DNA from: an uncultured Allobaculum sp.
Lineage (GTDB): Bacteria > Bacillota_I > Bacilli_A > Erysipelotrichales > Erysipelotrichaceae
Direction of reading: 5' to 3'
NCBI GenBank assembly: GCA_948467695.1
Contig: CAOKFJ010000143.1
Location: forward strand, 1-5,529
DNA: 5,529 nucleotides
Under the pieces are notes generated by a model. The model saw nothing but the letters and a program-made list of their open reading frames with translations, did no database searches and had not been told where the DNA came from. The number at the start of each line of letters is the position of its first letter. Position 1 is the first letter of the stretch. Made by a program: the position numbers and the translations under genes. Below are positions 1,018 through 4,329 of this stretch, piece after piece.

Positions 1018-2418
1018 CTAGAATCCTTTAAAGGCTGATTTGTGCTCGTCGGCAAAGGCTTTGGCGTCTGCTGCCTGACCGAGAACATTTTCTTTTGCCG
1101 GACCGCCGTACACTTTGCGATCCGCTACCGCTTTGTGCAGATCGATCGCTTCATAGAAGCCTTCATCAAACAGATCGCTAAGCGCCTGGAGATCTTCAAG
1201 GGATACCTGGTCGAGCGTGATGCCTTTAGCTATGCAGTCAGCAACCAGAGAACCGGTCAGTTTGTAGGCATCTCTGAAGGGCATGCCTTTTTTTGCCAGA
1301 TAGTCGGCGCATTCCGTGGCGTTGATGAAGCCTTTGGAAGCAGCGGCTTTCATATTGTCCTTGCGGACTTTCATCGTTTTGAGCATGCCGGGCAGAACCT
1401 TGAGGCACATCTTGACGGTATCAACGGCATCGAATACCGCTTCCTTGTCTTCCTGCATGTCTTTGTTGTAGGCAAGAGGCAGACCTTTCATGACGGTGAG
1501 CAGACCGATCAGATCGCCGTAGACACGACCGGTTTTGCCGCGGATCAGTTCGCACATGTCGGGGTTTTTCTTCTGAGGCATGATCGAGCTGCCGGTGGAG
1601 TAGGCATCATCGAGTTCGATGAACTTGAACTCCCAGGAGCTCCAGAGAATCATCTCTTCGCTCAGGCGGCTCATGTGCATCATAAGAATCGACATGTCGG
1701 ACAGAAATTCGATGGCGAAGTCTCTGTCGGAAACCGCGTCGATCGAGTTGGACATCGGTTTGGAGAAGCCAAGATGCGAAGCGGTGAATTCTCTGTCGAG
1801 GTTGAATGTGGTTCCCGCAAGGGCTCCGGCGCCAAGCGGGCATTCATCCATGACTTCAAGCGCGTTTTCCAGACGGAGCACATCGCGCTTGAACATATTG
1901 GCGTAAGCCATCATCGTGTGACCGAACGTTACCGGCTGCGCTCTTTGAAGATGCGTATAGCCCGGAACGATTGTTTCGGCGTGTTCTTCGCCAAGATCGG
2001 CGAAGACTTTGATGAGGCCGACAAGCATATCTTTGATTTCTTCAATCTGTTTGATCACATACAGACGAAGGTCGAGAGCAACCTGGTCGTTGCGGCTTCT
2101 GCCGGTGTGCAGTTTCTTGCCGGTATCGCCGATCGATTCGGTCAGAAGCTGTTCGACGCAGGTGTGAATATCTTCATATTTGCTGGAAAATTCGATATCG
2201 CCGCTGTTCATTTTGTTGAGCAGTTCAAGCAGTCCATGATGAATGGACTGTTTTTCTTCAAGGCTCAGGATGCCCTGTTTTTCCAGCATGCAGCTGTGCA
2301 CCAGACTGCCCAGGATGTCCTGAGGATACAGTCTGGAATCAAAGGAGATGGAACTGTTGAAGTCGTTGGCATCGGCGTCGGTTTCTTTGGAGATCCGGCC
2401 GGTCCACAGCTTACCCAT
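1018..2418 (-). CDS. argH: Argininosuccinate lyase
   Basis: It cleaves argininosuccinate to arginine and fumarate, the last step of arginine synthesis, as a cytoplasmic homotetramer of the fumarase/aspartase superfamily. The 466 residues match the usual 450-470. Visible motifs: the N-terminal KLWTGRISKETD with FNSSISFDSRLYPQD; TGRSRNDQVALDLRLY from about 105; GYTHLQRAQPV around 152-162 with the conserved His156; and the family signature GSSIMPQKKNPD at 276-287, which contains the catalytic serine loop. The C-terminal region up to HKSAFKGF is complete, so the gene looks intact. The ATG at 2418 directly follows the argG stop (TAA-ATG), which suggests translational coupling; the only nearby purine stretch is the weak GTGGAA. 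It is co-transcribed with argG behind the T-box leader. Confidence 0.98.
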   Translation of the reverse strand: MGKLWTGRISKETDADANDFNSSISFDSRLYPQDILGSLVHSCMLEKQGILSLEEKQSIHHGLLELLNKMNSGDIEFSSKYEDIHTCVEQLLTESIGDTGKKLHTGRSRNDQVALDLRLYVIKQIEEIKDMLVGLIKVFADLGEEHAETIVPGYTHLQRAQPVTFGHTMMAYANMFKRDVLRLENALEVMDECPLGAGALAGTTFNLDREFTASHLGFSKPMSNSIDAVSDRDFAIEFLSDMSILMMHMSRLSEEMILWSSWEFKFIELDDAYSTGSSIMPQKKNPDMCELIRGKTGRVYGDLIGLLTVMKGLPLAYNKDMQEDKEAVFDAVDTVKMCLKVLPGMLKTMKVRKDNMKAAASKGFINATECADYLAKKGMPFRDAYKLTGSLVADCIAKGITLDQVSLEDLQALSDLFDEGFYEAIDLHKAVADRKVYGGPAKENVLGQAADAKAFADEHKSAFKGF

Positions 2419-3690
2419 TTATTCCACACTGGAGAAATGTTCTCCAGTCTCCTTGGCGAGCTGGGCATCATGGATCGCCCGTACAGCGATGGGCAGACCG
2501 AAGAGGTTGATGAATCCAGCGGAATCGCTCTGGTCGTAGCAGTCGTCTTCATCGAATGTAGCCATGCCTGCGTTGTAGAGCGAGAAGGGGGAAGTTACAG
2601 ATACGGGAATGATGTTTCCTTTGTACAGCTTGAGTGTCACGTCGCCGGTTACGGTTTCCTGAGTGGAATCCACGAAAGCGGAGAGCGCTTTTCTCAGCGG
2701 TGTATACCACAGACCATCGTAAACAAGTTCGCCGAACTTCTGAGCGACTGTCTGTTTGAAGTGCTTGGTGTTTTTGTCGAGCGTGATTTCTTCGAGCTTG
2801 TCGTGCGCTGCGTAGAGGATGGTTCCGCCCGGTGTTTCGTATACGCCTCTGGATTTCATGCCGACAAGTCTGTTTTCAACGATATCGAGGATGCCGATAC
2901 CGTTGGCGCCGCCGATTTTGTTGAGGAGCAGGATGATTTCCTTGGCGCTCATTTCTTTGCCGTCGACTGCTGTCGGAACACCTTTTTCAAAGTGGATGGT
3001 GACATTGGTCGGTTTGTCGGGAGCCATTTCGGGAGATACGCCCAGTTCGAGGAATCCCGGCTGGTTGATCGGCGCTTCATTGGCGGGATCTTCCAGATCA
3101 AGACCTTCGTGCGAGAGATGCCAGAGGTTTTTATCTTTAGAGTAGTTGGTTTCTTTATTGATCTTCAGAGGGATGTTGTGGGCTTCAGCATAAGCGATTT
3201 CTTTTTCGCGGCTGTTCAGTTCCCAGAATCTCCAGGGAGCGATGATGTCGAGTTCAGGAGCGAAGGCTTTGATCGCCAGCTCGAATCTCACCTGGTCGTT
3301 TCCTTTGCCGGTGCATCCGTGGCAGATGGCCTCAGCGCCTTCGGCTTTTGCGATTTCCACAATCCGTTTGGCGATGATCGGTCTTGCGAAGGATGTTCCC
3401 AGCAGATACTGTTCGTAGCTTGCACCGGCTTTGAGCGAGGGCACGATGTAATCGTCTACAAATGTGTCAGTCAGATCTTCGATGTACAGTTTCGAAGCGC
3501 CGGTAGCGAGAGCTTTTTCTTCCAGACCTTCAAGCTCGTCCGCCTGACCTACGTTTCCGGATACGGCAATGACTTCGCAGCCGCCGTAGTTTTCTTTAAG
3601 CCAGGGAATGAGGCAGGATGTATCAAGACCGCCGGAATAGGCGAGGACAATTTTCTTGTATGTTTTGTTTTCGTTATGCAGGTTGCTCAT
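2419..3690 (-). CDS. argG: Argininosuccinate synthase
   Basis: It condenses citrulline and aspartate to argininosuccinate using ATP, in the cytoplasm as a tetramer, and feeds ArgH directly. It has 423 residues against about 400 for the family, the excess being partly a short N-terminal lead ([13 protein letters not shown]). The N-type ATP pyrophosphatase loop AYSGGLDTS is at 17-25. [10 protein letters not shown] at 99-108 and [14 protein letters not shown] at 124-137 form the substrate-binding core. [16 protein letters not shown] lies in the C-terminal domain. No key residue seems missing. The start at 3690 is supported by AAGGAG eight bases upstream. It is the first structural gene after a T-box riboswitch and an Arg-codon leader ORF, so its expression is expected to rise when charged tRNA-Arg is scarce. 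Confidence 0.98.
2428..2448 (-). other. Hairpin at the end of argG, just before the argH start
   Basis: ACTGGAGA (2448-2441) and TCTCCAGT (2435-2428) form a perfect 8-bp stem around ACATT, within the last codons of argG and nine bases before the argH ATG. It pairs up the GGAGA that would be the best Shine-Dalgarno-like sequence near argH, so argH translation may depend on ribosomes finishing argG. Confidence 0.5.
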
Positions 3691-3705
3691 GATGTATTCT
3701 CCTTA
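3691..3705 (-). promoter_or_regulatory. Ribosome binding site of argG
   Basis: AAGGAG at 3704-3699 is eight bases from the ATG at 3690. It fixes the start and contrasts with argH and argC, which have no comparable site. Confidence 0.85.
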
Positions 3706-3814
3706 TATCCTTTTCGGATCTGTTCGATAGTCATTCGACATAGCGTCTATATGTAAACTGAGTTTTTCAGGATGGATCGTTCCGAAACACGTTCATCGAG
3801 GATCCGTGCCGGAT

Positions 3815-3883
3815 TCAGTTCATTTCGATCTCCTGTTTATGAATCGATGTGTACAGGCATCGTCGTCGTCGCTCTTCCTGCAT
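3815..3883 (-). CDS. Putative arginine leader peptide (22 aa, RRRR) upstream of argG
   Basis: ATG at 3883 opens a 22-codon frame beginning MQEERRRRCLYTS and ending with TGA at 3817-3815. Residues 5-8 are four consecutive Arg, all CGA (3871-3860). A purine-rich site, GGAAGGGG (3899-3892), lies eight bases before the ATG, as good as that of argG. The ORF begins right behind the T-tract of the T-box terminator, so it is made only in read-through transcripts, and it ends 124 bases before argG. CGA does not occur in the four large genes here. I infer a ribosome-stalling sensor of arginyl-tRNA. CGA and the T-box's likely CGU codon are normally read by the same tRNA-Arg (anticodon ICG), so both layers could sense one tRNA. 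No classical terminator follows, so any effect would be through mRNA folding, translation or RNA stability. A chance CGA triplet repeat is the main alternative. Confidence 0.55.
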   Translation of the reverse strand: MQEERRRRCLYTSIHKQEIEMN

Positions 3884-3891
3884 ACAAATCG

Positions 3892-3899
3892 CCCCTTCC
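3892..3899 (-). promoter_or_regulatory. Ribosome binding site of the Arg leader ORF
   Basis: GGAAGGGG, eight bases from the ATG at 3883 and only one base after the terminator T-tract. This well-placed site is the main reason to believe the leader ORF is translated. Confidence 0.5.
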
Positions 3900-3930
3900 A
3901 AAAAAAAACGTCCCTTCATACGAAAGGACG
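3900..3930 (-). terminator. T-box regulated intrinsic terminator
   Basis: CGTCCTTT (3930-3923) pairs with AAGGGACG (3916-3909), with one T-G pair, and is followed by nine T (3908-3900). Its 5' arm is shared with the antiterminator, where 3932-3928 pairs with 3941-3937 and CCT 3927-3925 with AGG 3951-3949, giving the mutually exclusive folds expected of a T-box. Confidence 0.9.
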
Positions 3931-4128
3931 ATAAGGATCGCGGTACCACCTGTCTTCCCTCTTCTTTGAAGAGGACTCTCTCCCATAACGCCGGGTCGCG
4001 GGAACAGCTCGATTTCTGTCGCGGTTCCACTCACGGACACGTTCGCTGCCTTGCCGCCATCCCTTCTCACCAAACGGGACTCTCTTTGGACTTTCGTGCA
4101 GGTACTTCTTCCGATCACTGATTTGATA
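3900..4128 (-). promoter_or_regulatory. T-box riboswitch, probably tRNA-Arg specific, controlling argGH
   Basis: The leader binds uncharged tRNA and then folds into an antiterminator. Elements in order: GGAAGAAGTA (S-turn side of the specifier loop) near 4107; AGAGAG and the distal loop TTTGGTGAGAA closed by TCCC/GGGA (about 4084-4060); likely specifier codon CGT at 4035-4033; the stem IIA/B block with CCCGGCGTTATGGGA at 3995-3981; stem III CCTCTTC-AAA-GAAGAGG at 3974-3958; the T-box TGGTACCGCG at 3948-3939; and the terminator. The T-box class is certain. The specifier is inferred from its position, by comparison with well-known leaders, and from the genes controlled. An additional T-box-like TGGAACCGCG lies at 4029-4020. 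Confidence 0.95.
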
Positions 4129-4295: not shown

Positions 4296-4329
4296 CAGTT
4301 AACATAGACAAAATCACTGTTTTGTCTAA
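4296..4329 (-). promoter_or_regulatory. Candidate operator shared with the argC upstream region, site 2
   Basis: TAGACAAAA (4305-4313) and TTTTGTCTA (4320-4328) form a perfect 9-bp inverted repeat with a six-base spacer. The 14-mer TTAGACAAAACAGT (minus strand 4329-4316) is identical to plus 821-834. On the minus strand TTTTGTCTA (4313-4305) is followed directly by TGTTAACTG (4304-4296), the same two 9-mers as in site 1 but in swapped order. It lies about 130 bases upstream of the argG promoter. No T-tract follows, so a terminator is unlikely. Confidence 0.45.

Follow-up and report, generated by a model that had tools for sequence, protein, structure and literature searches.

What is the function of a 22-codon open reading frame (ORF) that carries four tandem CGA codons and lies, with a Shine-Dalgarno (SD) site of its own, between the terminator of a T-box riboswitch and argG? 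The question is raised by a stretch of DNA of 5,529 nucleotides that was analysed as a whole and is called the window here; it is the entire contig of an incomplete genome, and among named organisms the nearest relative found is Allobaculum mucilyticum strain 128, whose ArgG is 95 per cent identical. The feature is described on the minus strand, on which a partial glycosidase gene (PF12972) is followed by the Arg T-box, its terminator, the 22-codon ORF, a 124-nt spacer, argG, argH and argC (Table 1). The ORF had been noticed from its sequence, and its coordinates, its position behind the T-box terminator, its SD and the CGA run at codons 5-8 were all confirmed. The T-box itself is well defined: the covariance model scores above its cut-off, the specifier (by reading) is an Arg codon, the downstream genes are argG and argH, and an intrinsic terminator with a run of nine T follows the antiterminator. 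Specifiers in related argG T-boxes are CGU in most readable cases of the window's family, with CGC in one of its members (L018), and CGC in the readable cases of the sister family. CGU and CGC codons are served by the same tRNA, and the T-box is expected to sense uncharged tRNA-Arg(ICG).

Table 1. Coordinates of the arginine T-box, the leader and the genes behind it in the window
Feature	Position	Strand	Basis
T-box riboswitch, Arg specifier CGU at 4041-4039, antiterminator bulge GGTACCGCG	3921..4127	-	RF00230, 105.1 bits (gathering score 93); specifier by reading
T-box terminator: hairpin 3930-3909 and nine T 3908-3900	3900..3930	-	terminator scan
Leader SD site GGAAGGGG	3892..3899	-	sequence; SD score 4
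Arg leader ORF, 22 codons and stop, product MQEERRRRCLYTSIHKQEIEMN	3815..3883	-	sequence; conserved in relatives
Leader start codon ATG and stop codon TGA	3883-3881 (ATG); 3817-3815 (TGA)	-	sequence
Four tandem CGA, codons 5-8, predicted stall site	3860..3871	-	sequence
124-nt spacer, including argG SD AAGGAG at 3704-3699; no conserved structure found	3691..3814	-	
argG, argininosuccinate synthase	2419..3690	-	PF00764 and PF20979
argH, argininosuccinate lyase	1018..2418	-	PF00206 and PF14698

A search of 315 genomes of the order for ArgG gave a match in 98; 90 upstream regions were examined, the other eight genomes having too little upstream sequence, broken hits or sequence that was not fetched. 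A T-box core was present in 48 of the 90 regions; the 42 counted without one include two of just 87 and 22 nt, and any T-box that lacks the searched core would escape this count. Behind the 48 cores, 30 cases have a CGR-CGA pair in frame with a start codon that is preceded by an SD, two (G204 and G205) have a single CGA followed by AAA, and 16 have no such ORF. The 30 leaders with a pair span 15 genera in two families. In this set, which was assembled without codon selection, the pair always has CGA as its second codon (30/30) and CGA or CGG as its first, and it lies 1 to 5 codons from the start. SD, start, frame and Arg pair are thus kept across relatives and the sequence beyond the pair drifts, which is the behaviour that the original prediction had proposed to look for; the four other members of the genus all lose their DNA similarity to the window at position 3866, inside the CGA run. 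The same prediction had held that relatives with the T-box and without the ORF would speak against it, and this was seen in part, in the 16 of 48 cases just given. In one genus member (G001:C1:593611-594878), ArgG is split over two overlapping frames, through either a sequencing error or a broken gene. No ArgG relatives were found in viral contigs.

The leader is not confined to argG. A scan of the order for a T-box core, a T run and CGRCGA found this pattern in 92 of 315 genomes, from 27 of 79 genera, and the reversed pattern that served as the control was found in 7 genomes. At class level, 17 of 395 genomes carried the pattern; three matches outside the order were set aside as chance, since they resemble the start of tyrS, the start of pheS and an unrelated stretch. 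Of 74 pieces that were read, 70 were distinct with an in-frame leader, two had no in-frame start, one match lay inside a gene and one piece was a duplicate, so that 70 of 73 distinct pieces hold an in-frame leader. Two of these 70 stop short of a gene; behind the other 68, the genes look by eye like those of lipoprotein binding proteins. The downstream genes of L292 and L240, the two that were tested, match PF00497 (extracellular solute-binding proteins, family 3), and the leader therefore likely accompanies arginine transport genes as well. Leaders come from 26 genera in all, counted by genome handles. The feature is thus real and far wider than the window.

A search for Arg-specifier T-boxes that made no reference to the leader gave 123 places in 100 of the 315 genomes. 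Among the 105 of these that were read (18 were not, and one of the 105 ends 79 nt past its core), 33 are followed by a CGRCGA leader, recognized by position as one already known, three by another Arg run (CGA-CGA-CGA in L370 and L386, CGA-CGT in L388) and two by a single CGA, and 67 have none. The second Arg T-box of Allobaculum, ahead of a binding-protein gene, is among those without a leader (L354-L357). The 67 leaderless T-boxes here and the 16 ahead of argG indicate that the T-box works without the leader. They are also what one would expect if the ORF had arisen by chance and had no function, a reading to which we give next to no credence because frame, SD and codons are conserved and because the pattern was found in 92 genomes as against 7 for the reversed control. 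The genome of the window has eight further T-box matches, and the ORF lists for the regions behind them, inspected by eye, showed no cognate-codon leaders. We hold with high confidence that the Arg-codon leader is tied to Arg T-boxes, and these comparative counts bear out the proposal that an Arg-codon leader behind an Arg T-box places two potential sensors of one tRNA pool on one message.

The evidence that the leader is translated is indirect but strong. For 92 non-identical leaders out of 98 loci (six were left out because their first 14 residues are identical to those of others), the best-scoring SD and start codon upstream of the pair were chosen blind to frame; six of the 92 have no start with an SD score of 4, and in 85 of the remaining 86 the pair is in frame with the start so chosen, where roughly one third would be expected without translation. 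Many of these leaders come from close relatives, so that the counts are not independent events. The pair lies at codons 2-7 in 91 of 92 leaders, start-to-pair offsets differ by whole codons and 21 different codons precede the pair. Its second codon is CGA in all 92 and its first is CGA in 78 and CGG in 14, in a set for which the scan itself required CGRCGA. We regard the leader ORF as likely translated. These data also bear on a reading in which CGRCGA is an RNA or DNA element, bound by a protein or by another RNA, with an incidental ORF around it. The constancy of the six bases in the argG leaders, where the search did not demand them (30/32), is what such an element would produce; its coupling to the frame of the best SD and start, the whole-codon offsets, the synonymous variation at the third base of the first codon and the diversity of the preceding codon are not, and we consider this reading very improbable. 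Nor do the peptides resemble an arrest peptide: upon inspection by eye, Arg-Arg is shared between genera and the rest differs.

The choice of codon points to the tRNA that may be sensed. CGA is absent from the 46 Arg codons of argC, argH, argG and the glycosidase piece, in agreement with the initial reading of about 46 codons. That reading had also named a high genome-wide frequency of CGA as an argument against a special role, and here the outcome is mixed: in 204 genes from 20 contigs, CGA makes up 347 of 3,823 Arg codons (9.1 per cent), which is uncommon but not exceptional, and CGA-CGA accounts for one of 217 Arg-Arg pairs. Among 90 Arg codons counted in ten argG genes from the window's family, 3 are CGA. 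In counts that begin after codon 20 of each gene and leave out leaders of at least 60 codons, the pairs of 81 leaders consist of CGA in 148 of 162 codons and CGG in 14, and 60 binding-protein genes, partly read, contain 76 Arg codons of which none is CGA or CGC. Leaders thus use CGA or CGG, and CGA is almost absent from argG and the binding-protein genes.

A tRNA survey of A. mucilyticum (G002), which is a sequenced relative and not the window's own genome, found tRNA-Arg genes with the anticodons ACG (two genes), CCG, CCT and TCT; tRNA-Arg TCG was not found in pieces covering all but one of 57 Rfam tRNA places. CGA can be read by the ACG tRNA through inosine, by I-A wobble. In the apparent lack of a tRNA-Arg(UCG), CGA should therefore be read by tRNA-Arg(ICG), the tRNA expected for the T-box, and CGG by another isoacceptor (CCG), so that CGG-CGA leaders may watch two isoacceptors. 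A theory outlined in an excerpt of PMC1183508 holds that regulation makes use of the codons whose translation responds most sensitively to starvation, and Arg pairs containing CGA are described as slow in the his leader of Salmonella (excerpt of PMC4046918); the split in codon use between leaders and targets fits both.

Two further observations concern the targets. The binding-protein genes behind leaders are very poor in arginine, with their 76 Arg codons spread over 60 genes after the first 20 codons, and an induced transport protein thus seems to spare the amino acid that it is expected to import. In nine genomes of the sister family, argG uses no codon read by the tRNA expected for its T-box: 75 of 75 Arg codons are AGA, and the flanking genes have AGA in 161 of 271 Arg codons, CGA in 18 and CGG in none.

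The reading that we favour, at a probability of roughly 60 per cent, is that the leader is likely translated and would monitor charged tRNA-Arg(ICG), as the second of two sensors, on those messages that get past the T-box. When charged tRNA is short, the T-box would let RNA polymerase pass, and the first ribosome on the leader would stall at the CGA codons and stay parked there, still covering the leader's own start site, as footprint size suggests for a stall at any of codons 2-7. The parked ribosome would end traffic over the leader and shield the 5' end of the message, the gene's own ribosome-binding site, predicted to be open, would stay free, and each transcript would give a higher output. 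If charged tRNA is plentiful, ribosomes would pass the leader and the output of each transcript would be lower. In B. subtilis, a ribosome stalled close to the 5' end is reported to stabilize long stretches of mRNA (excerpt of PMC3997798). Since the leader stop lies 124 nt before argG, 5' shielding would be the likelier route in the window. We infer translation and stalling as well as the sign and size of the effect and the respective parts of traffic relief and 5' shielding; that the leader senses tRNA charging is put forward with moderate confidence, and the sign of the effect and the output step with low to moderate confidence.

How would such a stall be converted into output? Ribosome-mediated transcription attenuation with alternative hairpins had been the first suggestion, and a run of cognate codons in a short leader ORF, together with complementary 6-mers in the window, is in keeping with it. 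A consensus terminator scan of the minus strand, however, found the T-box terminator and none between the leader and argG, and neither terminator nor antiterminator hairpins are predicted behind the leader ORF. The fold of the window leader is no more stable than those of its shuffled versions (z +0.89), and the mean over 89 leaders is -0.31, although ten lie below -2. Placing a ribosome on the CGA pair or on the stop brought no consistent change of fold in 23 leaders. The two 6-mer pairings that had been named do exist as complementary sequences; they are specific to the window, and the end of similarity at position 3866 means that the four other genus members do not share them. Classical attenuation is therefore not supported, and we judge it highly improbable. 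The gene SD is predicted to be open over the 89 leaders (median unpaired probability 0.91, below 0.4 in three), and together with folding that is on average no better than in shuffles this makes it unlikely that the leaders commonly work by a change between RNA folds; an RNA switch between the leader and argG was rejected on the same folding data. A pairing of CGACGA with the antiterminator TCGTC was also dropped, since Faecalicoccus has ACGTCC (by eye) at that place and yet keeps CGACGA.

The geometry of leader and gene is variable at the leader stop and more regular at the pair. Among 92 leaders, 14 run in frame into the gene and 21 overlap its start, and the stop lies 0-14 nt before the gene in six, 15-25 nt in eight, 26-60 nt in 35 and more than 60 nt in eight. 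For 89 of 92 leaders the distance from pair to gene is no less than 50 nt, and for 76 it is 50-79 nt; the three with a shorter distance have doubtful gene starts. In the window, the pair lies 181 nt before argG. The downstream genes have an SD of their own, with a score of at least 4 in 88 of 92. One leader, MTSDRRCREENLL... (G008, piece L221), has no stop and continues in frame into a binding-protein gene.

In the rtpL leader of the anti-TRAP system, the stop codon reportedly lies near the SD of the regulated gene. A strict form of that arrangement, in which a ribosome that finishes the leader would pause at its stop and cover the gene SD and a stall at the Arg codons would keep it off, is quite improbable here. 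In 14 of 92 leaders the stop is 0-25 nt ahead of the gene, but its position is not conserved: 43 leaders end at least 26 nt before the gene, 35 run into or past its start, and the distance in the window is 124 nt. What the locus does have in common with B. subtilis rtpA (excerpt of PMC11255114) is the tandem of T-box and cognate-codon leader as such; here it consists of an SD-bearing leader ORF with tandem cognate codons behind the T-box terminator.

A more serious rival keeps the sensor and inverts the sign. A stall would then lower output, because full translation of the leader feeds the gene by coupled reinitiation or because the stall holds ribosomes back, and the leader would temper the response of the T-box. 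The 21 leaders with a stop that overlaps the gene start and the 14 that run into the gene in frame would suit such coupling, as would the frame beyond the pair, which is open up to the gene SD in 36 of 89 leaders as against 18 expected from shuffles. In S. aureus, slow Arg codons of rbfL are reported to lower expression of the downstream gene under Arg limitation (excerpt of PMC13009471), and reinitiation at leader peptides has been proposed to be general (excerpt of PMC4833913). The T-box and the leader would, however, then oppose each other, the genes own an SD, and a ribosome stalled on a pair at least 50 nt before the gene would not cover the gene SD in the manner of rbfL. We therefore regard the inverted sign as unlikely. 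The open frame is a hint that ribosomes which continue to the gene are important, whether the effect is positive or negative; since it would also suit the inverted sign, it counts against a stall that raises output, the sense of the reading that we favour. That reading is also weakened by the 14 of 92 leaders with CGG as first codon, which should need another isoacceptor (CCG), and by the 43 of 92 with a stop at least 26 nt before the gene, for which relief from leader traffic is hard to see.

The best reading of the leader by analogy is that it works like the anti-TRAP tandem, as a structure-free arginine counterpart. Because the stop-codon geometry of rtpL is not found, we file the leader as a variant of that tandem. 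In B. subtilis, rtpA encodes anti-TRAP and is a Trp T-box gene whose translation is also regulated by tRNA-dependent ribosome stalling (excerpt of PMC11255114, citing Chen and Yanofsky 2003, 2004). Both systems would combine, on one message and for the same tRNA, a T-box that controls transcription with a stall, predicted in the present case, that controls translation. The arginine leader differs in its amino acid and CGA codons, in targets that are a biosynthetic gene and binding-protein genes rather than a regulator, in a stop without a fixed place before the gene, and in its spread across an order.

Three other systems share parts of the design. S. aureus rbfL is likewise a short upstream ORF with rare Arg codons that responds to arginine limitation at the level of translation, as is predicted here; in the excerpt of PMC13009471 it has no T-box, uses AGA and AGG codons and overlaps the SD of its gene, which the stall lowers. 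The Salmonella speF leader orf34 has two consecutive Arg codons whose rate of translation sets expression, again as predicted here; as presented in the excerpt of PMC6386406, orf34 has no T-box, involves Rho, RNA structures and RNase G, and contains a conserved peptide domain. Erysipelotrichales, the same bacterial order, also have leader ORFs with cognate His codons, which in the excerpt of PMC9413887 belong to his operons without a T-box and operate with terminator and antiterminator hairpins. No description of an Arg leader behind a T-box was found in the open-access literature among the matches listed, and in a term search the main texts of a T-box survey (PMC2494555) and a T-box review (PMC7583486) do not contain the words arginine or Arg. 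The original prediction had known of no precedent for a tandem of T-box and arginine leader; among the matches listed there was likewise none, and the general idea is known from B. subtilis anti-TRAP.

More tentatively, a large part of this gut-bacterial order may stack two sensors of one tRNA on each message: a T-box with a CGU or CGC specifier for uncharged tRNA-Arg(ICG), and a structure-free stall leader that would monitor the charged form through its worst codon, CGA. The targets would be written in other Arg codons or be almost free of Arg, and output would be set by a parked ribosome itself instead of an RNA fold. If this is true, the tandem of T-box and leader peptide, known for a Trp regulator gene of Bacillus, is a widespread arginine design, and a sensor based on ribosome stalling needs neither an RNA switch nor a stop at a fixed place. 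Codon choice would be tied to regulation, the sensor using CGA, the specifier CGU or CGC and the targets almost no CGA. Genome annotation would gain a compact module composed of an Arg T-box, an SD, a start, a few codons and CGR-CGA.

Some minor observations were made at these loci. A 14-mer, TTAGACAAAACAGT, is present twice in the window, at 821-834 on the plus strand and at 4316-4329 on the minus strand (chance 0.03); one copy is upstream of argC and the other upstream of the argGH T-box, where it forms part of an inverted repeat, TAGACAAAA-N6-TTTTGTCTA. It could be an operator common to both arg units; no copy with up to two mismatches was found in the loci of six relatives, which do not all cover both regions. 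In three genomes (G257:C17, G258:C226 and G259:C62), two Arg-specifier T-boxes lie on the same strand about 240 nt apart, probably as a tandem ahead of one gene (L398, L399 and L413). Finally, behind the second Arg T-box in genomes of the Allobaculum and Ileibacterium type (L354-L359), where there is no Arg leader, a small hairpin (GGGC/GCCC, GGGA/TCCC and alike), recognized by eye, precedes the binding-protein gene; it adjoins the conserved CCGGAAAGGA or a similar SD region, and the two sides of its stem seem to covary.
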